From positions 1-35,465 of the forward strand of contig JAPOJV010000018.1 in assembly GCA_029978085.1 (NCBI GenBank): DNA of 35,465 bases. Reading direction: 5' to 3'. This stretch comes from a bacterium. Lineage in GTDB: Bacteria; Planctomycetota; Planctomycetia; Pirellulales; UBA1268. The position numbers and the translations under genes are program-made. The notes beneath the pieces are model-generated. The model was not told the origin of the DNA, did not search any database, and worked only from the letters and a program-made list of their open reading frames with translations. Below, in pieces: positions 3,572 through 18,988 of this stretch; position 1 is the stretch's first letter; every line of letters starts with the position of its first letter.

Positions 3572-6500
3572 TCACTTGCAGAGGGCTTCGTCGAGGTTCA
3601 TCAGTTCGTTCGTGAGCATCGTCCAGGCGGCCAGTTGGGCTGCGTCGGCCGTGGTGGCCTTGGCATCTCCCACGGCGACGAGTTTCTGGGCCTCGTCGGG
3701 ATGTCCGCCGTACCAGGCGGAGAGATCAGAGAGCGACTGTTGCACGATCGCCAGTTCGTCGGAGGCGAACGGCCGCGACAGGACCCGCTTCACGATGAAG
3801 TCGATCCGGGCTTCGTCGGTGCCGGCCGTCTGGATCGCCCGGTCGGCCAGGATCCGGGCCGCCTCCACGAACTGCGGGTCGTTGAGCGTGACGAGCGCCT
3901 GCAGCGGCGTGTTGGTCCGCTCCCGCTTGACCGTGCAGGTCTCACGCGAGGGCGCATTGAAGATCTCCATCGACGCCGGCGGCGCCGACCGCTTCCAGAA
4001 CCAATACATGCTCCGCCGGTAGAGGGCGTCCCCCTTGTCCCGTTGGTAACGGCTCGTGTTGCCGCCCATCGACACCGCCTCCCATACACCGTCGGGCTGA
4101 TAGGGCTTCACGCTCGGGCCGCCGATCTGCTTCACGAGCAGGCCGCTCGATGCCAGAGCAGCGTCGCGGACCATCTCGGCGTCCATGCGGAATCGTGGGC
4201 CGCGGGAGAGCAGGCGGTTGGCGTTGTCTTTCACGAGCTTGTCGGGCGTGGTCGCCGCACTCTGGCGGTAGGTGGCGCTCGTGAGCATGAGCCGGAACAG
4301 TTTCTTCACGTCCCAGCCGCTCTCACGGAACTCGATGGCCAGCCAGTCGAGCAGCTCAGGATGACTCGGCAGTTCGCCGGTGATGCCGAAGTCGCCCGCC
4401 GTCCGCACGAGCCCCGTGCCAAACACCTCCTGCCAGAACCGATTGACCGTCACCCGCGTCGTGAGCGGGTGATCCTGGAGCAGGAGCCACTTCGCCAGAC
4501 CGAGCCGATTCTTCGGCAGCTCCGCCGGGAAGGCCGGCAGGACCGCTGGCGTGGACGGCTGTACCTCATCCTTCCGCTTGTCGTACTCTCCGCGGTCGAG
4601 AATGTAGGCCTTCGCCATCTCGTTCTTCTCGTTCATGACATGGGCGACGGTGCCCCGCTTGCGGATGTCGGCATGCTCGCTCTCGAGCTGGGCCAGATCG
4701 GCTGTCGCCGCCTTATACGTCTCGTCGAGGCTCGCGAGCCACCAGTCGTAGAGCCCGGCGGCCGCCTTCACCCGCTCCTCGGGCGCGAGCCTCACGATCT
4801 GTGCCAGTGCCTGGGCCTTGGAGAGGCTCTCCACTTCACCGGCCGTCAGGGCCCGACCCCAGAGTTCGATGCCAGCCAGGCCCACGCCATGGGCCGTCGC
4901 CGCCTGCGACCGGCCGCCGATCACCAGCGGCGTCTCGGTCTTGATCGTGTGCTTCTTGAACGTGTTGGTCTCGACCTTCGGCTTCTGGAGCTTGCCGTCG
5001 TAGTAGATCTTCACCCCCTCGGCCTTGCCCGAGCCGTCGTAGGTGACCGACACGAGCGTCCAGGCATCGGCCTTGAGCTGGGCGGACGACACCACCTTGA
5101 TCGCGTCGGCGGGAAACGCATGGATGAGATGCATCGCGATGCGGCGGCCCTGCACCCAGACATCCCAGCCGCGGAAGGCATTCGCCTCGTCCATCCGGGC
5201 GATCACGGCATACGACGTGTCGTTCGCCGGCGGCCGGATCCAGAACGTCGCGCTGAACGGCTGATCGTGCTCGAAGTCGCCGACGGTCGGCAGCTCCGCC
5301 GCCCGGCCATCGAGGAGCACCGCGGCCGCGCCGCTCGGGCCGGCCTGCCACTTCGTGGTCGTGGTCAGCGGCAGGTCGGTGTCCTTGCCCACGAGGCGGG
5401 CCCGTGTTTTCGTGCCCTCGCCTTCGAGCAGGTCGAGCTCCAAGAGCGGCGTGTCCTGCGGCGCGGCCTTCGCCACTGCATCCGGCGTCGCCTCTTTGAT
5501 CCAGCCGTCGAACTCGGCGCGGGCCGCCTGCTTCCGGGTTTCGACCGCCTTGCGGCCTGCGGCCAACTCCTTTTCGAGCGCGGCGAACCGCTGGCGATCC
5601 TCGGACTTCGGCACCACGACGATCGGCGGCGTGTCGTGGATGTTGCCGTCCATCGCGGCCTGCGTCGTGTTATTGAAGAAGGCCGCCAGCTCGTAAAACT
5701 CCTTCTGTGAGAGCGGGTCGAACTTGTGGTTGTGGCAGACGGCACAGCCCGCCGTGAGGCCCAGCCAGACCGCCGCCGTCGTCTCCGTGCGGTCGCGGGT
5801 GTAGAGCACGAGATACTCCTCGGCGATGGCCCCGCCTTCGTTCGTCGTTATGTTGCAGCGGTTGAACCCGCTGGCGATCTGCCGGTCGAGGATGTCGTCG
5901 GGGCTGCCCTCCGCCTCATTGGCCATGAGGTCGCCCGCGAGCTGCAGGATCGTGAACTGGTCGAACGGCAGGTTGCGGTTGAACGCGTTCACCACCCACT
6001 GCCGATAGGTCCACATCTCGCGATAGTTGTCGTAGTGGATGCCGTGTGTGTCGGCATAGCGGGCGTAGTCGAGCCAGTGGCGGCCACGGTGCTCGCCCCA
6101 CTCGGGCTTCGCCAGGAGCTGATCGAGGAGCTGCTCGTAGGCGTCGGGCCGCGTGTCGGCGACGAAGGCCTCGACGAGGGCCGGCTCCGGGGGCAGCCCC
6201 GTAATGTCGAGCGCGACCCGGCGGGCCAATGACCGCCGATCGGCCTCGGGGGCGGGCGCGAGGCCTGCGGCTTCCAGCTGGGCGAGAATGAACCGGTCGA
6301 TCGGATTCTTGACCCAGGCCTCGTTCTTCACGGCCGGCGGCTGGGGACGCGCGGGCGGGATGAACGACCAGTGCGGCTGATACTCGGCCCCTTCGGCGAT
6401 CCACCGCTTCAGCAGTTCCTTCTGCTCGGCCGTGAGCACCTTCTTGAGGCTCGGCGGCGGCATGACCTCTTCGGGGTCGTCCGAGAAGATGCGGTCGAGG

Positions 6501-13000: not shown

Positions 13001-13257
13001 ACCGGCCGAGCCTCACCGAGCCGGTGGACGTGCTCTCCGGCTGGCGGTGGGGGGACGGCGCCGGCTGGTACGTCGCCATCCGCGACGCCTCCACGCAGCT
13101 GTTCTTCGAGCGGCTGCCGCGGGGCACGCACGTGTTCGAGTATTCGCTGCGGGCGGCCCACCGGGGCACGGCCTCGAGCGGCTTTGCCACGATCCGCAGC
13201 CGCTACGCCCCCGAGTTCAGCGCCCACTCCGCAAGCGTGAACCTCGAGGTGCAATAA
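7045..13257 (+). CDS. Alpha-2-macroglobulin-like protein with degenerate thioester
   Basis: A 2070-residue secreted or membrane-anchored member of the bacterial alpha-2-macroglobulin family, which traps or inhibits proteases at the cell envelope. The ATG at 7045 has GGAGA about 8 bases upstream and opens a hydrophobic signal/anchor (residues 10-26); the frame runs further upstream without better signals. MG-type beta domains follow, including the characteristic GVVLITDRGIHRPGQIVHYKG-like block near residue 620. A Gly/Met/Arg/Pro-rich low-complexity stretch (about 1213-1293) stands where a bait or linker region is expected. The MG-to-TED block FFLPALSSDKEGNVTIEFTV comes next, then an alpha/alpha-toroid TED-like region from about 1510. 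The usual ECxEQ thioester site aligns with ESTET (1521-1525), so both the Cys and the Gln of the thioester are missing. No pbpC (PBP1C) partner gene is adjacent. The stop codon abuts a palindromic repeat. Confidence 0.9.
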   Translation: MLLSSRRPAASVLIGLVILGGIAVMHRSSQGAEPATGPRAAAWGRVQQALDEGKPKTALESLAGIEQAAIQEKAWAEAARAIATRILAETGDRPGDDPERVIRLAAAIDNAPAETRGVLQAIRANWTWGYFQANRWRYQQRTPGSVPTPQGGADLAKLAEWDLPTIVAEIRSRFATAVGATGSAERTLLQSLPVADWSLLIEKGTQPDAYRPTVWDVVVRNAIEFAASGERGLVDPEDAFELVASSPALGTLDEFLAWKPAADATVTDTAAPVLDTLRLYRELIAFHAADADKTALLSADLDRILWAAGAAVPDDGPETLAARKRQALEAFAARAGNHETAALATYHVAESVRDAGDLVAARTLAAGVIDGQPKSPGAAMCRNLIAEIEAKNLSLATERSWAAPWPAIRVSYRNLAKVHLRLVKADWMQRLRAGKQLDWFDDEDRAALLKLPAVREQAVDLPATPDFRERHEDVPVTVLDPQGLEPGGYFVIASARPDFGGSDNVVAAAFVRVTRLAIVIEQGGAGHVVNIATGEPVAGATVKAYVGSWDNAQSRQVFQEYGPTTTDKDGRFSLELPEPAHNVVIVASATLDGATHEAATDRTHVWQQHRPHPHGAVVLITDRGIHRPGQIVHYKGIVCSVDQAGAKYAAAANVAVDVVFRDANGREVAKGRHTTTANGSFHGNFPIATGALPGQWSIQAQAAGQQPAAGGVGVRVEEYKRPKFKVELAKPAQATPLGGTVTLTGTATTYTGLPVAGAKVAWRVERQVRWPIWCRWFFPWLPFDSGAQRIARGTAVSDANGAFTIAFPAKPDRSVPKDSLPVFTFAVTADVTDAGGETRSADQSVSVGYTDVEAAVTTDAWQAVNDAGEPAAVAVTVNTTTLDGVAKGATGTLTVSRLVQPAEVDRGSFAGPMPRPVPVMRGGQAGLPRPPEVDPANPDTWAAGEAVLTEKLVTDAATGKTVATAKLPAGIYRAVFAIPAAGDVPAVKAEQVIEVLDPRAERYGVKRALALIAPKTTVEPLSDYTGLIGTGYDRGRAFVEISQAGKVLERFWTQPGRTQWPVTFKVAAEHRGGFTVRTWMVRDGRLHDRTQVVDVPWTDKKLAVSWERFTRRLEPAAKEVWRAKIVSVADPVAGPAAPVQAELLALLYDQSLDALAAHDWPAAGLAGLFRSESGPLPLAFTNSGCGLAQLLWAFDVKHVDVPELTYRQFREPFGPQPWGMFGGRPRLMRGGRMMAERGIPMPAVAMAADAAVADEAPTAARREKSASNAAEAGKGSPPPRTGGPAAAPPPPRKNLVETAFFLPALSSDKEGNVTIEFTVPDTLTTWQFKALAHDAALRSGTLVDTCVSAKDLMVEPLMPRFLREGDVVQIPVKVSNKSTGRLTGTVTFALFDARTDASRDDLVEGKREQAFDLAAGESKPAVFTVKVADGTDALRYLATGRAGTASDGEEAMIPVLPRRVLVTETVPVTIRGPGERAVSLDRLAKSAGTDIQSQSLVVQAASNPAWYAVLALPAIMEQTDESTETLFTRLYANTLAHHLATRDPRIAKVFEQWKGTDALTSPLEKNTDLVKTLLAETPWVRDAVDETEARARIALLFDATRADNEAAAALQRLAALRNGDGGWPWFSGGQTCDSVTLGIIAGFGRLRAAGVKLDVQPALEAIPWLDGRLVEERTRAKKSWGDKPDDVVLTPIGAYALYARSFFRDDAPPQGEAAGAIRWGLDVAKRNWAKLDGRMTQGHAAIALVRAGERETALSIVDSLKQRAVDADVQPGAEKDSWQGMWWRDPHPGWWSWNYAPIATQTIMIEAFDEVAGDAPSVEALKVWLLSQKRTSQWPGSRATADAVSALLGRGTDLLASQELVEVTIGGERIEPVKVEAGTGFFEERLVRREITPQAGAIRLVKKDAGLAWGGVHWQYLDDISQAPAAGREELAIEKQLFVKRFTKAGPELVPIAGAAGVTVEPGDELVVRLVVTSDRDYQFLELADHRPSLTEPVDVLSGWRWGDGAGWYVAIRDASTQLFFERLPRGTHVFEYSLRAAHRGTASSGFATIRSRYAPEFSAHSASVNLEVQ

Positions 13258-13321
13258 AGGTGCCAGCCACCAAATCTGGGTAATCTGCCAGCTTCTCCAG
13301 ATTTGGTGGCTGGCACCTTTT
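13256..13321. repeat. Palindromic element A, copy 1 (terminator-like)
   Basis: Near-perfect inverted repeat: 24-base arms at 13256-13279 and 13297-13321 (arm core GGTGCCAGCCACCAAATC) flank a 17-base centre. It starts inside the TAA stop of the macroglobulin gene and ends in TTTT, so its RNA would form a strong hairpin plus U-tract and could terminate transcription. The same arms occur at 16895-16961 with a related centre in the opposite orientation. That pattern marks a dispersed REP/MITE-type element rather than a gene-specific terminator. Confidence 0.9.
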
Positions 13322-15546: not shown

Positions 15547-16125
15547 ATGGCGAAGAAGAAGGCGAAGGCGGGCAAGGGGGCGACGGGGCGGATCATCCTG
15601 CGGACGGGTGAGGCGCTCGTGGAGGACGAAGCCGCATGGAGCGCCGCGGAGCCGGAGGTGGTGATCGGTGAGCTCGACGGCCCGGTGGGCTACGCGATCG
15701 CCAATCTCATCGGCGACCAGACGAAGGGGCACTCCCGCGTGTTCGCGATCCTCAATTCCGACGTGCAGGTCCGCCCCGCCACGCTCATGGTGAGCAAGGT
15801 GACGGTGAACAACTCGAAGTACACCAACATCCTCATGGGCACGGTGCAGGCAGCGATCGCCCATGGCGTGCTCGACGCCGTCCGCTCAGGTGACATTCCC
15901 GAGAAGAAGGCCAACGACCTCGGCATCATCGTCTCGGTCTGGCTCGACCCCTCGATCACCGAGGTCGACTACGACCCCGAGATCCTGTTCCGTACGAACC
16001 GCGAGGCGACGGCCAAGGCGCTCCGTAAGGCGATGAACCACGAGCCGTCGATCAAGTGGCTGCTGGCGAACCAGGCGAAGGTGCCGCACTACTTCCACGA
16101 CCTCGCCGTCAAGGGCGAGCTCTGA
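15547..16125 (+). CDS. Formaldehyde-activating-enzyme-like protein with altered active site
   Basis: A 192-residue homologue of Fae, which in methylotrophs joins formaldehyde to tetrahydromethanopterin. The core aligns without gaps to my memory of the Methylobacterium enzyme over about 48 residues, from VIGELDGPVGYAIANL to PATLMVSKVTVNN. GEALV at the start, DAVRSGDIP and the helix NREATAKALRKAMNHEP also match. The residue matching the catalytic His (in AHIDLIIG of true Fae) is Glu35 here (AEPEVVIG). A basic leader (MAKKKAKAGKG) precedes the domain. The ATG at 15547 has GGAGA 9 bases upstream. It is therefore probably a Fae paralogue with a changed reaction, or a binding protein, rather than a standard Fae. 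The 3' end overlaps the convergent apbE gene by 17 bases. Confidence 0.85.
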   Translation: MAKKKAKAGKGATGRIILRTGEALVEDEAAWSAAEPEVVIGELDGPVGYAIANLIGDQTKGHSRVFAILNSDVQVRPATLMVSKVTVNNSKYTNILMGTVQAAIAHGVLDAVRSGDIPEKKANDLGIIVSVWLDPSITEVDYDPEILFRTNREATAKALRKAMNHEPSIKWLLANQAKVPHYFHDLAVKGEL

Positions 16126-16969
16126 CGGGCAGCTCGATCGTGCCATCGACGCCGGGCGGAATGCCGAGCACAAGTGCGGCGACCGCCCAGGCGTCGGCAC
16201 TGGCACATGACGACGACCGAACCGTGGCCGATATGGCCGACGGGCTTACGACCCGTCCCGTCCGCGGATCGATCGGCGATCGGCCGGAGCGGCTCGTCGC
16301 TGTTGCCAGCGCGAGGCCGTCAGCCAGTTCGATCACGCGTCCGCCCGCGCCGACCGCCATTCTCCAGGCCGTGCCGTCCGGCCGCCGCCCCCACGCCCGC
16401 ACCTCGCCCCCCAGCTCAACAAGGTGCGCCATCGAGCCGAGTTCGCTGAGCCGATCCCCGATCGCATCGACCCCGTAGCCGGGGCCGATTCCGCCCACGT
16501 CCAGCGCGATGCCGTCGACGTCTTTCCGGAGGGCTGCGGGGGATTGCCGAGTCTCGACGTGTTGCATGCCGAAGGGGCGGCCACTGCCGGGCGGTGCGAA
16601 CGTGATGTCGAAAGCTCCCTGCGACTCGGCGTGCACCGTGCGGGCGATCTCCACGACAGCCACGAGATCGTCAGCCACCTCCACCCGCTCGCCCGCCGCG
16701 GCGCGGTTGAAGCGGCTGACGTCGGAATCGTCCCGCCACGTGTTGAGTGCCCGGTCGAGCCGCGCAAGCACGCCCTCCACCTCACGATGCACCTCGCCGA
16801 TCGCCATGCCCTGAATCCCGCGGGCCAGCGTGACGCGAAACGTCGTGCCCATCGCCGGGCCGGCGAACGTCAGCAGCCCGTCGGCAGCCGCTGAAAAAGG
16901 TGCCAGCCACCAAATCTGGGCAAGACAGCAAACTACCCAGATTTGGTGGCTGGCACCTTTTCTGTTCAT
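16109..16969 (-). CDS. apbE: ApbE-like FAD:protein FMN transferase, divergent, with repeat-encoded signal peptide
   Basis: A 286-residue ApbE-family protein. ApbE attaches FMN to a Thr/Ser in exported FMN-binding domains, and the upstream neighbour has such a domain. Family motifs are FAGPAMGTTFRV (35-46), DSDVSRFN (81-88), ESQGAFDITFAP (115-126), ALDVGGIGPGYGVD (155-168) and IDPRTG (233-238). Three points are odd. The Lys of the usual GGIAKGYA is Pro163. The loop before IDPRTG is shortened by roughly 15-20 residues. ADALAT reads ADAWAV (258-263), losing the Thr that helps bind magnesium. Residues about 4-25 are encoded by palindromic element A and form the hydrophobic core of a Sec signal peptide ending SAAAD. 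The ATG overlaps the NosR-like stop in an ATGA quartet, which fixes the start upstream of the repeat. Activity is uncertain. Confidence 0.85.
   Translation of the reverse strand: MNRKGASHQIWVVCCLAQIWWLAPFSAAADGLLTFAGPAMGTTFRVTLARGIQGMAIGEVHREVEGVLARLDRALNTWRDDSDVSRFNRAAAGERVEVADDLVAVVEIARTVHAESQGAFDITFAPPGSGRPFGMQHVETRQSPAALRKDVDGIALDVGGIGPGYGVDAIGDRLSELGSMAHLVELGGEVRAWGRRPDGTAWRMAVGAGGRVIELADGLALATATSRSGRSPIDPRTGRVVSPSAISATVRSSSCASADAWAVAALVLGIPPGVDGTIELPVRARP
16895..16961. repeat. Palindromic element A, copy 2, inside the apbE reading frame
   Basis: Inverted repeat with 25-base arms at 16895-16919 and 16937-16961, nearly identical to those of copy 1 at 13256-13321, around a 15-17 base centre. 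Read on the minus strand, the centre aligns with that of copy 1 at about 14 of 21 positions, so the two are homologous elements in opposite orientation. This copy begins 8 bases after the A of the apbE start codon, keeps the frame open, and contains no stop in that frame. Confidence 0.9.
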
Positions 16970-18690
16970 TGGGGCCACCAGTGGACGAGGGTGGCGACGG
17001 CGAGGCAGGCGACGAGCAAATAGTCACGCCACGTGATCCGGTCAGCCTTGCCGTGGAACCGGAGGTGATCGAGCAAGGCGCCGGTGGGGCAGCCGTGGCG
17101 GCAGTAGGCCATCGGGAAGAAGGCACTAGCCACGAGGCTGACGACGAAGATCGCGACCGCGGCGGCGCCGGCGACCGCCGGCAGATAGCCGTCGAAGGGC
17201 TCGATGTCCACGAGTGAGAGCGGCAGATGGAGCATGGCCGTGAGGATCGCCACCACGAGAAGTGCCCAGGGCAGACCCGTGAGCCAGGGCCGGAGTTTCG
17301 CGGGAATCGTCCGCTTCGGCTTCACGAACCGCACGAGCAGCTGCTGTGCCGCGCCGTGGGCACAGAGATGCGCGCAATAGACATTGCGGCGGGTCGTCAC
17401 CGGGAGCACGACTGCCGCCACCGCGAGGGCCGCCAGCACGACCGCCCCCCGGGGCACGCCGGCTTGGGCCCAGCCCCACATTTGCGCCTGCGAGAGCAGA
17501 GCGCCGGCTCCGAAGCCAAGATAGAGGAGCACCGTAATCGGGAGCGCGAGCCGTCCGAACCACGTGCCGCGCAGCCGGGTGAAGGCCGTCACGATGCCTG
17601 CGGCGATCACGCCGAGCGCCCCGAGCCTGGGCCCGTCGAGGCTGCGCAGGATCCCGCTCCAGCCTCCGGCATCCGCCCGCGTGTCGCGCGCGGCCACCTG
17701 CTGCCGTGCGGCCAGCACGATCCCGCGGGCCACCGCCTGGCTCGTCATCGTGGCGCCGCTCACGCCCTCGACACCCGTATCGCCATCGTCGATGCCGGCC
17801 ACCTGCTCGAACGTCATCCCGCGATACACGCCGCGAAACGCCCCGTCGTCACGGACGTAGCCCACGTAGGGGTCGTTGTCGTAGCTGGCGAGCACGGCGA
17901 CGCCTGCGACTTTTCCGGTGGCATCGAAGCCGATCACGGCATCGGTCGGCCCCTGGTAGCCGATCACGCGATCCGCCGCCGGGCTCGTCCGCAGCGCCCA
18001 GCCGAGCGGTATCCGCTCGGCGGCATACACGCGGATCACGGTCGGATCACCGGCGTCCGCTTCGATGGCGACGGCCTCAGGAAAGATCTGCTGGAGATCG
18101 ACGAGCGTGGGCGCCGTCTCGAAACGGCTACCACCGACGGTGCCGCCGAGCCGGAGTGCAAGGGACTCGGCGATCGCGATGCAGGTGAGCGTCGAGCCAC
18201 CGACGGCATCGGCCCGGCCTGCATCCCGGGCGGCAAGCTGATCGAGCGACGTGCCGACGAACGACTTGAGGAACGTCGCATCACGCTCGATCGCCGCCAC
18301 GTGGTCGCGGGTGTCGCGGCTGGCGAGGATCTCGACCCCTGCCACGCGGAGGTCTGCATCGCAGACGACGAGCAGATCGGTCGGCCCCGAGAACCCGATC
18401 GCCGTATCGCCGGCCGGTGACGTGCGAAACATGGCACCCACCCGCTCGCCGGCTCGATCGAGGAGATCGACGCCCCCCGCAATCGCCGGCGACGGTCCGC
18501 CGATCGCAGCCGCCGTGCCCAGGTGCCGCTGCACCCGCGAGACTGGCACTGCTTCGATCGCGGCGGCCTGCTGCCGCCCAAGAAACGCCACGTGCTCGGC
18601 ATGCACGAGCCACACGAGCGCCGCCACGACGGCGACGCGGCCGCCATGCGTGAGGAGACGACGAAAACGGGTGCTGTCGTGCGGCCGCAT
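16966..18690 (-). CDS. NosR-like membrane flavoprotein with two FMN-binding domains and Cys pairs
   Basis: A 574-residue inner-membrane electron-transfer protein resembling NosR/RnfG-type systems. An N-terminal transmembrane anchor (about 17-30) leads to two tandem periplasmic FMN_bind-like domains. The first (about 75-185) ends in a weakened acceptor motif, GGST (164-167). The second (about 220-330) has a canonical covalent-FMN motif, SGATMTS, with Thr314 as the predicted flavinylation site. Five to six membrane helices follow (from about 355), with two cytoplasmic-type Cys pairs: C439xxxC443 in NVYCAHLCAHGAAQQ, and C530xxxC534P in AYCRHGCPTGALLDH. These resemble the NosR CxxxCP motifs. The separate C-terminal ferredoxin domain of full NosR is absent. 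The ATG at 18690 is preceded by a G-run. No nosZ or nitrous-oxide genes are near, so the partner is probably another periplasmic reductase. apbE follows by ATGA overlap. Confidence 0.82.
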   Translation of the reverse strand: MRPHDSTRFRRLLTHGGRVAVVAALVWLVHAEHVAFLGRQQAAAIEAVPVSRVQRHLGTAAAIGGPSPAIAGGVDLLDRAGERVGAMFRTSPAGDTAIGFSGPTDLLVVCDADLRVAGVEILASRDTRDHVAAIERDATFLKSFVGTSLDQLAARDAGRADAVGGSTLTCIAIAESLALRLGGTVGGSRFETAPTLVDLQQIFPEAVAIEADAGDPTVIRVYAAERIPLGWALRTSPAADRVIGYQGPTDAVIGFDATGKVAGVAVLASYDNDPYVGYVRDDGAFRGVYRGMTFEQVAGIDDGDTGVEGVSGATMTSQAVARGIVLAARQQVAARDTRADAGGWSGILRSLDGPRLGALGVIAAGIVTAFTRLRGTWFGRLALPITVLLYLGFGAGALLSQAQMWGWAQAGVPRGAVVLAALAVAAVVLPVTTRRNVYCAHLCAHGAAQQLLVRFVKPKRTIPAKLRPWLTGLPWALLVVAILTAMLHLPLSLVDIEPFDGYLPAVAGAAAVAIFVVSLVASAFFPMAYCRHGCPTGALLDHLRFHGKADRITWRDYLLVACLAVATLVHWWPQ

Positions 18691-18727
18691 GTCCCCCACT
18701 CTACGCGAGAGGCGGTTCTCGCGTCGA

Positions 18728-18764
18728 TTGACGGAAAGCCATTTTGGCCGTATGGTTTTCCATA
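18728..18764 (+). promoter_or_regulatory. vapBC promoter with overlapping operator; probably leaderless transcript
   Basis: TTGACG at 18728-18733 and TATGGT at 18751-18756 are separated by 17 bases, a good sigma-70 arrangement. The expected transcription start, six to eight bases past the -10, falls on or beside the vapB ATG at 18764, so the mRNA would have little or no leader. The inverted repeat TATGGTTTTCCATA (18751-18764) covers the -10 and reaches the start codon. That is a natural place for the VapB or VapBC complex to bind and repress its own operon. This is inferred from position only. Confidence 0.5.
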
Positions 18765-18988
18765 TGAAGACGACCCTGTCTATCAGCGACGCGACGATGC
18801 GGGCGGTGAAGCGTGAGGCCGCCCGTCGCGGGCAAACGATGTCTGAACTCGTCGAGTCGGCCCTGCGGCAGGCGCTCGGGCAGGCGAGGCCGATGAAGAA
18901 ACTACCGCCGTTGCCCATCCATGCCAGCGGGGGAGCCCGCGTGGACATCTCGGATCGCAAGGCTCTCTACGACGCGATGGGGCGGTAG
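18764..18988 (+). CDS. vapB: VapB-type ribbon-helix-helix antitoxin
   Basis: A 74-residue antitoxin. The N-terminal half (MKTTLSISDATMRAVKREAARRG through MSELVESALRQAL) is a typical ribbon-helix-helix DNA-binding unit: one beta strand with alternating residues, then two helices. The C-terminal tail (about 45-74, Pro-rich then RVDISDRKALYDAMGR) would wrap the toxin, and its Asp-Arg-rich end is typical of this class. The toxin gene follows after one base. An in-frame ATG at 18752 is an alternative start but lies inside the predicted -10 element. It is divergently placed from the NosR-like gene. Confidence 0.88.
   Translation: MKTTLSISDATMRAVKREAARRGQTMSELVESALRQALGQARPMKKLPPLPIHASGGARVDISDRKALYDAMGR

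Follow-up and report, generated by a model that had tools for sequence, protein, structure and literature searches.

The window analysed here, a stretch of 35,465 nucleotides from a Pirellulales contig (JAPOJV010000018.1), carries on its minus strand an apbE gene just downstream of a gene for a NosR/NapH-like flavoprotein, and an early stretch of apbE codons falls within one copy of a palindromic repeat. The features relevant to the present analysis are as follows:

About 13255–13321: palindromic element copy 1, intergenic, directly past the TAA of an upstream open reading frame.
16109–16969, minus strand: apbE, FAD:protein FMN transferase of 286 aa, with PF02424 at residues 40–271 (E 6.4e-42).
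16883–16969, minus strand: predicted signal peptide M1–A29, with n-region MNRKGASHQ, core IWVVCCLAQIWWLAPF and SAAA before D30, the cleavage site being deduced from sequence.
16894–16961: palindromic element copy 2, with arms at 16899–16919 and 16937–16957 and A and T tails outside them, spanning codons 4–25 of apbE.
16966–18960, minus strand: NosR/NapH-like flavoprotein gene with FMN_bind (PF04205) and Fer4_5 (PF12801) domains, the 5′ end of the reading frame being uncertain.

The FMN_bind and Fer4_5 combination is the domain make-up of NapH-like flavinylation systems (as described in excerpts of PMC8238504), and an exported ApbE is therefore expected at this locus. At its 3′ end apbE is overlapped by a convergent gene for a formaldehyde-activating enzyme (Fae, PF08714; window 15547–16125).

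The apbE ATG (16969–16967) overlaps the TGA of the NosR-like gene (16968–16966) as ATGA, and the overlap on which the original prediction fixed the start is thus real; an in-frame GTG three codons upstream would add three residues if used and otherwise have no effect. Copy 2 is a 68-base palindrome that begins at the end of codon 3 and contributes 22 codons without a stop, part of MNRKGASHQIWVVCCLAQIWWLAPFSAAADG. The earlier description of an element starting about three codons past the ATG and staying open for about 22 residues needed only small corrections, namely the boundaries listed above and the residues ASHQ, which it had omitted, and the second copy reported outside genes is indeed found just past the stop of a gene. 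Element-free orthologues begin at the same ATGA overlap with ordinary leaders (MKRVLVPLLTLACVAAARAAEP in the related genome G021, MRTCAIGLWLLLTAASMAAELP in G064 and MKSIVAILYVVISLSAVAGELP at locus L157), which supports the proposal that copy 2 is an insertion and not native coding sequence.

A genome search of the kind suggested at the outset recovered 23 short copies and one long pair of the element in the 3.3-Mb genome of origin (G000). The 21-base arm itself has 24 forward and 25 reverse matches at up to 3 mismatches, and because a reversed-arm control in the same genome and at the same mismatch limit gives 0 forward and 0 reverse, these repeats are not due to chance. All 23 short copies are dispersed inverted doublets, with folding computed on the apbE copies only; their 21-base arms start 37–73 bases apart, and the usual element ends are AAAAGGTGCC/GGCACCTTTT. 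The long pair lies on another contig (C99), where arms at 3632 and 4409, 777 bases apart, enclose a transposase gene:

C99, 3991–4329: Y1/RAYT-type transposase domain (PF01797, 3.6e-12), between the arms at 3632 and 4409.

The same repeat thus flanks a RAYT-type gene, the protein of which scores 77.1 bits against the NCBIfam model REP_Tyr_transpos, just below the cut-off of 80, and the same RAYT-sized arrangement, with arms 778–785 bases apart, recurs in G018, G021, G016 and, with a changed arm, G001. In G001 the changed arm, GGTGACAGTCACC, is present at both the RAYT-sized pair and a short copy (L131 on C468, L130 on C447), as if repeat and transposase change together. The element is of a kind likely moved by a transposase, putatively by this RAYT.

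Two known types of RAYT-associated repeat offer themselves for comparison. Like REPINs, as portrayed in excerpts of PMC3116915 and PMC2817692, the element consists of two inverted copies forming a hairpin, is dispersed mostly outside genes and is linked to a RAYT; it differs in its few copies (23 found), in arms that directly flank the RAYT gene, in the coding role of the apbE copy and in having no fixed GTAG head, GTAG occurring anywhere in only 5 of the 23 own copies and near the outer end in 1. TIRtrons share with it a RAYT-like gene between long inverted repeats and moderately abundant repeats elsewhere, and the same source names R. baltica as rich in tyrosine transposase genes with flanking repeats (excerpts of PMC3733652); the excerpted account of TIRtrons includes no coding role of the TIR repeats, whereas the apbE copy is coding.

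The position of the copies relative to genes follows a pattern. With genes called on the intact sequence by a small codon-usage script of our own, 14 of the 23 own copies have a stop codon between 3 bases inside and 12 bases outside the element, and in 6 further ones the stop lies deeper within the element or slightly further away; over all 89 copies the same measure gives 36 and 23. We also ran an empty-site control, a rough one in that joining the flanks created false open frames in some cases, in which 11/23 own copies lay −6 to +15 bases from a stop, vs. 29/484 random intergenic positions and 58/4600 random points, and in the other genomes 23/65 (66 copies, one lacking a distance) vs. 117/2514 and 179/13000. 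The apbE copy fits this gene-end rule relative to the stop of the NosR-like gene.

Within the family, apbE is present at E ≤ 1e-40 in 35 of 72 genomes, and among the 29 in which the leader was read, four carry an element leader (G000, G010, G063 and G086). A leader shared with relatives in whose genomes the repeat is not found elsewhere had been named as evidence against the insertion; all four genomes hold other copies. In G010, the closest relative found, the element is identical at 68/68 bases, compared with 682/782 for the rest of the gene and 1360/1503 for the 1.5 kb upstream. A search with the leader (residues 1–46) over 5.77 billion proteins gave 18 proteins at E ≤ 1 from 22 candidates, all of them ApbE, and its repetition with a dummy length of 601 aa, for proteins of ~330–1050 aa, gave 5 from 16 candidates, again all ApbE. 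A full-length search listed 120 of 491 matches. The 122 ApbEs obtained in all from the matches listed were sorted by eye into 49 element-type, 53 native and 20 unassignable proteins, the last with an annotated start that is internal or too short. Most of the 49 element-type proteins, known as protein sequences, come from metagenomes in which chimeric assembly is possible.

The lengths of the two leader types bear on how the element came to occupy its place. Among the matches listed, native leaders measure a median of 25 residues to GPAMGT (range 25–73, n = 53) and element leaders a median of 36 (range 35–49, n = 43 full-length), and plain insertion into a native leader would give ~47. By eye, a native-type core behind the element was found in none of the 43 full-length element leaders among the matches listed, and an intermediate with both cores was not seen. 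The original prediction had allowed that the element either replaced or lengthened the leader; the evidence favours replacement over lengthening. The converse, descent of native leaders from element leaders by decay, was rejected, as native leaders of ~25 residues occur in several genera.

A different account of the same locus would have apbE start further down, at the ATG of AMGT, leaving the palindrome as untranslated 5′ sequence only. The Pfam ApbE match does start at M40, some database entries are annotated from MGTTYR, and most REPs in N-terminal coding regions may represent misannotated starts (according to excerpts of PMC3733652). We nevertheless regard such a start, which the original prediction had named near FAGPAMGTT as a result that would overturn it, as highly improbable: in neither G000 nor G010 does an in-frame ATG, GTG or TTG occur between the first apbE ATG and that of AMGT, the start in relatives falls on the same ATGA and is followed by an ordinary leader, and the LPTxAGPA stretch just ahead of M40 is mostly conserved in element-type and native proteins alike. 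In addition, the 49 element leaders are in frame and free of stops, in a type of search that finds intact genes only, and a start at M40 would place a leaderless ApbE beside an FMN-binding partner expected outside the cytosol. The misannotation warning is answered here in that the start lies in the ATGA overlap, other start codons are lacking and the native leader is missing.

What the element encodes has, by composition, the features of a Sec signal peptide, with a basic n-region, a hydrophobic core and an AXA site. Of the six frames, apbE uses the one with the highest hydrophobicity (12-residue Kyte-Doolittle mean 1.98, octanol sum 9.6). Among 36 readings of non-apbE copies of the same size class, taken in that frame on both strands, 9 contain a stop, and 24 run through without one and match or exceed the lowest apbE leader in hydrophobicity. 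The element is therefore often suited to a leader role by its nature, copy 1, for example, reading KGASHQIWVICQLLQIWWLAPF. On the Kyte-Doolittle scale the median core value of element leaders, 1.57, is lower than the 2.17 of native ones, which counts against a signal-peptide function; on the octanol scale, which favours Trp, element cores are higher than native. A Trp-rich core of 16 residues could also point to an uncleaved membrane anchor instead of a cleaved signal peptide, and ApbE is called membrane-bound in a review (excerpts of PMC12052999). We hold this to be a real but doubtful possibility, against which stands the AXA-like pattern that follows the core, on a loose definition and among the matches listed, in 42/43 full-length element leaders and 53/53 native ones. 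Retention in frame across species together with these predicted features lends indirect support to the earlier suggestion that the element works as an export signal, and codons 4–25 likely stand in for the native leader as ApbE's Sec signal peptide.

The element could, on the other hand, owe its retention to the nucleic acid and not to the peptide, with a DNA or RNA hairpin acting as a terminator, an attenuator or a switch coupled to NosR translation and the leader coding as a by-product. Strong hairpins are predicted after the start codon in all four apbE element DNAs (−56 to −70 kcal/mol, vs. −13 to −32 kcal/mol for eight native leaders, of which shorter stretches were folded); such a hairpin may act on expression, including by the tuning of translation that the original prediction raised, and it should hinder translation, which itself counts against the signal-peptide reading. 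The element DNAs of G000 and G010 are identical at synonymous sites too (0/22 codons differ), an identity that is no proof of protein selection because the arms are nearly invariant in other copies as well; by the same token, conservation says little about a hairpin role at the apbE site. From the residues alone, perfect arm pairing is possible in 23/43 full-length element leaders, whereas in the other 20 a minimum of 1 to 5 of the 21 pairs must be mismatched. Among arm residue pairs, assigned in 42/49 element leaders (SW 25, WW 7, WC 5, RC 4, RW 1), a right-hand Cys occurs only with a left-hand W or R, paired changes that favor a conserved hairpin but that separate subfamilies explain as well as compensation does.

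The idea that diverged leaders have lost the palindrome altogether failed on these pairing figures. Forced mismatches in the most diverged leaders, P0103, P0057 and P0045, number 4, 4 and 5 of 21, and still at least 3, 4 and 4 with G-U pairs allowed, and all three keep a basic start and a hydrophobic core despite the broken pairs; in P0103 the change of W to G together with that of Q to P could even preserve a base pair. From the residues, then, the palindrome weakens in some lines without vanishing, and the peptide features persist. Selection at the protein level alone does not account for the synonymous identity and the many pairable leaders. Without the element-coded residues no signal peptide would remain, and we consider a pure hairpin role decidedly improbable.

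Element leaders span forms from intact to strongly changed, P0001 and P0103 differing at 10/36 positions, the latter with a more basic start (MKRRR) and an unchanged AXA-like end. In the G086 leader (L148, CAMAVC010000030.1), MKNISAWHRIWGICVVAIAQFAQIRCQAPILEAADLP, the coding element has arms GTGCCTGGCACCGAATCTGG, ATC/GAT ends and a 53-base spacing, all matching resident copies in its own genome, where a Y1 transposase gene (PF01797, 1.1e-10) lies within an arm pair 784 bases apart; the G063 leader (L154) shows yet another form of the arm, a third one, of which that genome too has resident copies. As the G086 leader stems from another subfamily, resident with its own RAYT gene, there have been at least two insertions, perhaps more, and the swap of native leader for element has likely happened more than once. 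In a tree of 40 mature domains (21 element, 19 native), from which ten distant element-free loci were left out, the leader type changes 8 times, with at least 7 changes forced by well-supported branches; a quick-method tree of 114 domains (52 element, 62 native), which used 12 loci and none of the remaining loci or of the 20 unassignable proteins, has 24 changes, at least 12 of them forced.

Those changes could also stem from one old insertion, the leader having spread by homologous recombination and the other types having arisen by conversion with resident repeats. Leader exchange fits both P0009 and P0004, which share a leader (34/35 residues) on different bodies (206/262), and P0016 and P0070, which have different leaders (element and native) on bodies alike at 285/286 residues, and these pairs point to recombination or to chimeric assemblies. 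The G086 copy, however, differs in arm subfamily, spacing (53 vs. 38) and ends, all as in its own genome, and element-free relatives fall between element groups in the trees. Recombination probably took place inside the g8 group, but we regard a single origin for all copies as unlikely. Two further leaders deserve mention in their own right: that of P0013 has two left arms (MKEKGASHQIWAIWRAKGASHQIWAIGQITQIWWLAPF), perhaps through nested or repeated insertion, and that of P0066, MRKGDSHQIWIIWQIAQIWWLSPF, fits an arm form dispersed in other genomes, GGTGACAGCCACC, and is perhaps a fourth subfamily at the same apbE site.

Scanning the 89 copies for other element-coded N-termini gave 34 gene-copy cases open through the element, counting the apbE copies of G000 and G010; in 16 of the 34 a start lies at the element or no more than 75 bases before it. 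The clearest case besides apbE, a gene for a DUF1501 protein (PF07394; L008/L215, G000 C70:5129–6628), holds the element between an ATG, again in an ATGA overlap, and a Tat-like RR motif; the insertion amounts, by our reading, to a net +87 bases in frame, and G010 has a clean empty site (L216). It was rejected as a safe second case, since translation might begin anew at a TTG at the end of the element. The same genome has another DUF1501-like gene (L060, ~1500–1600), 54% identical to the first, whose frame is open through an element directly before its RR motif; an ATG in the element loop could serve as its start. At L062 (G000), L123 (G016) and L145 (G005) elements lie directly upstream of the same gene, whose protein starts with MDKQN and which we take to resemble a glycyl-tRNA synthetase; these may be old insertions shared between species.

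Taken together, several points are seen directly: the copy is an insertion read in frame, no native leader is left, the closest relative found shares the leader, and in other genera the site holds other subfamilies. We consider it probable, with good confidence, that a dispersed, RAYT-flanking palindrome forms apbE codons 4–25, likely serving as a Sec signal peptide, the native leader being absent. The course of events may have been simple. The RAYT transposase would move short palindromes, which often settle right after a stop codon; as the NosR-like stop overlaps the apbE start in ATGA, "just after the stop" would here mean codon 3–4 of apbE. One frame of the palindrome appears export-ready, with a lysine, ~16 mostly hydrophobic residues and a proline, and a copy inserted in that frame could do the work of the native core, which has been lost. 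Export through Sec, cleavage behind AAA and retention by selection would complete this putative sequence.

Closest in kind are the Rickettsia palindromic elements, compared here by description, which are likewise palindromic repeats read in frame inside genes, some of them at the N-terminus (excerpts of PMC10969869 and PMC3733652). They occur in many unrelated genes and, in those excerpts, their effect on the protein is unexplored, whereas the family described here is linked to a RAYT, occupies the leader of a single gene and takes the place of a functional part. Among the open-licence PMC papers listed we found no report of REP, RPE or RAYT repeats as signal peptides. As far as those excerpts go, in-gene palindromic repeats are known without a clear function; the apbE copy would have a definite one, as an enzyme's export signal. 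We lean, by a small degree, toward the broader view that RAYT palindromes are a self-spreading supply of ready-made signal peptides: any subfamily resident in a genome could drop behind a stop codon, end up in a next gene that overlaps it and supplant the export signal there. On this view the native leader of ApbE in this family has given way to such a palindrome several times, and the two types are still being exchanged. The occurrence at the same site in three genera, with different subfamilies and with leaders that range between intact and heavily altered, provides a natural series on the origin of a signal peptide, and insertion after a stop that overlaps the next start would be a simple rule by which selfish DNA turns into protein.
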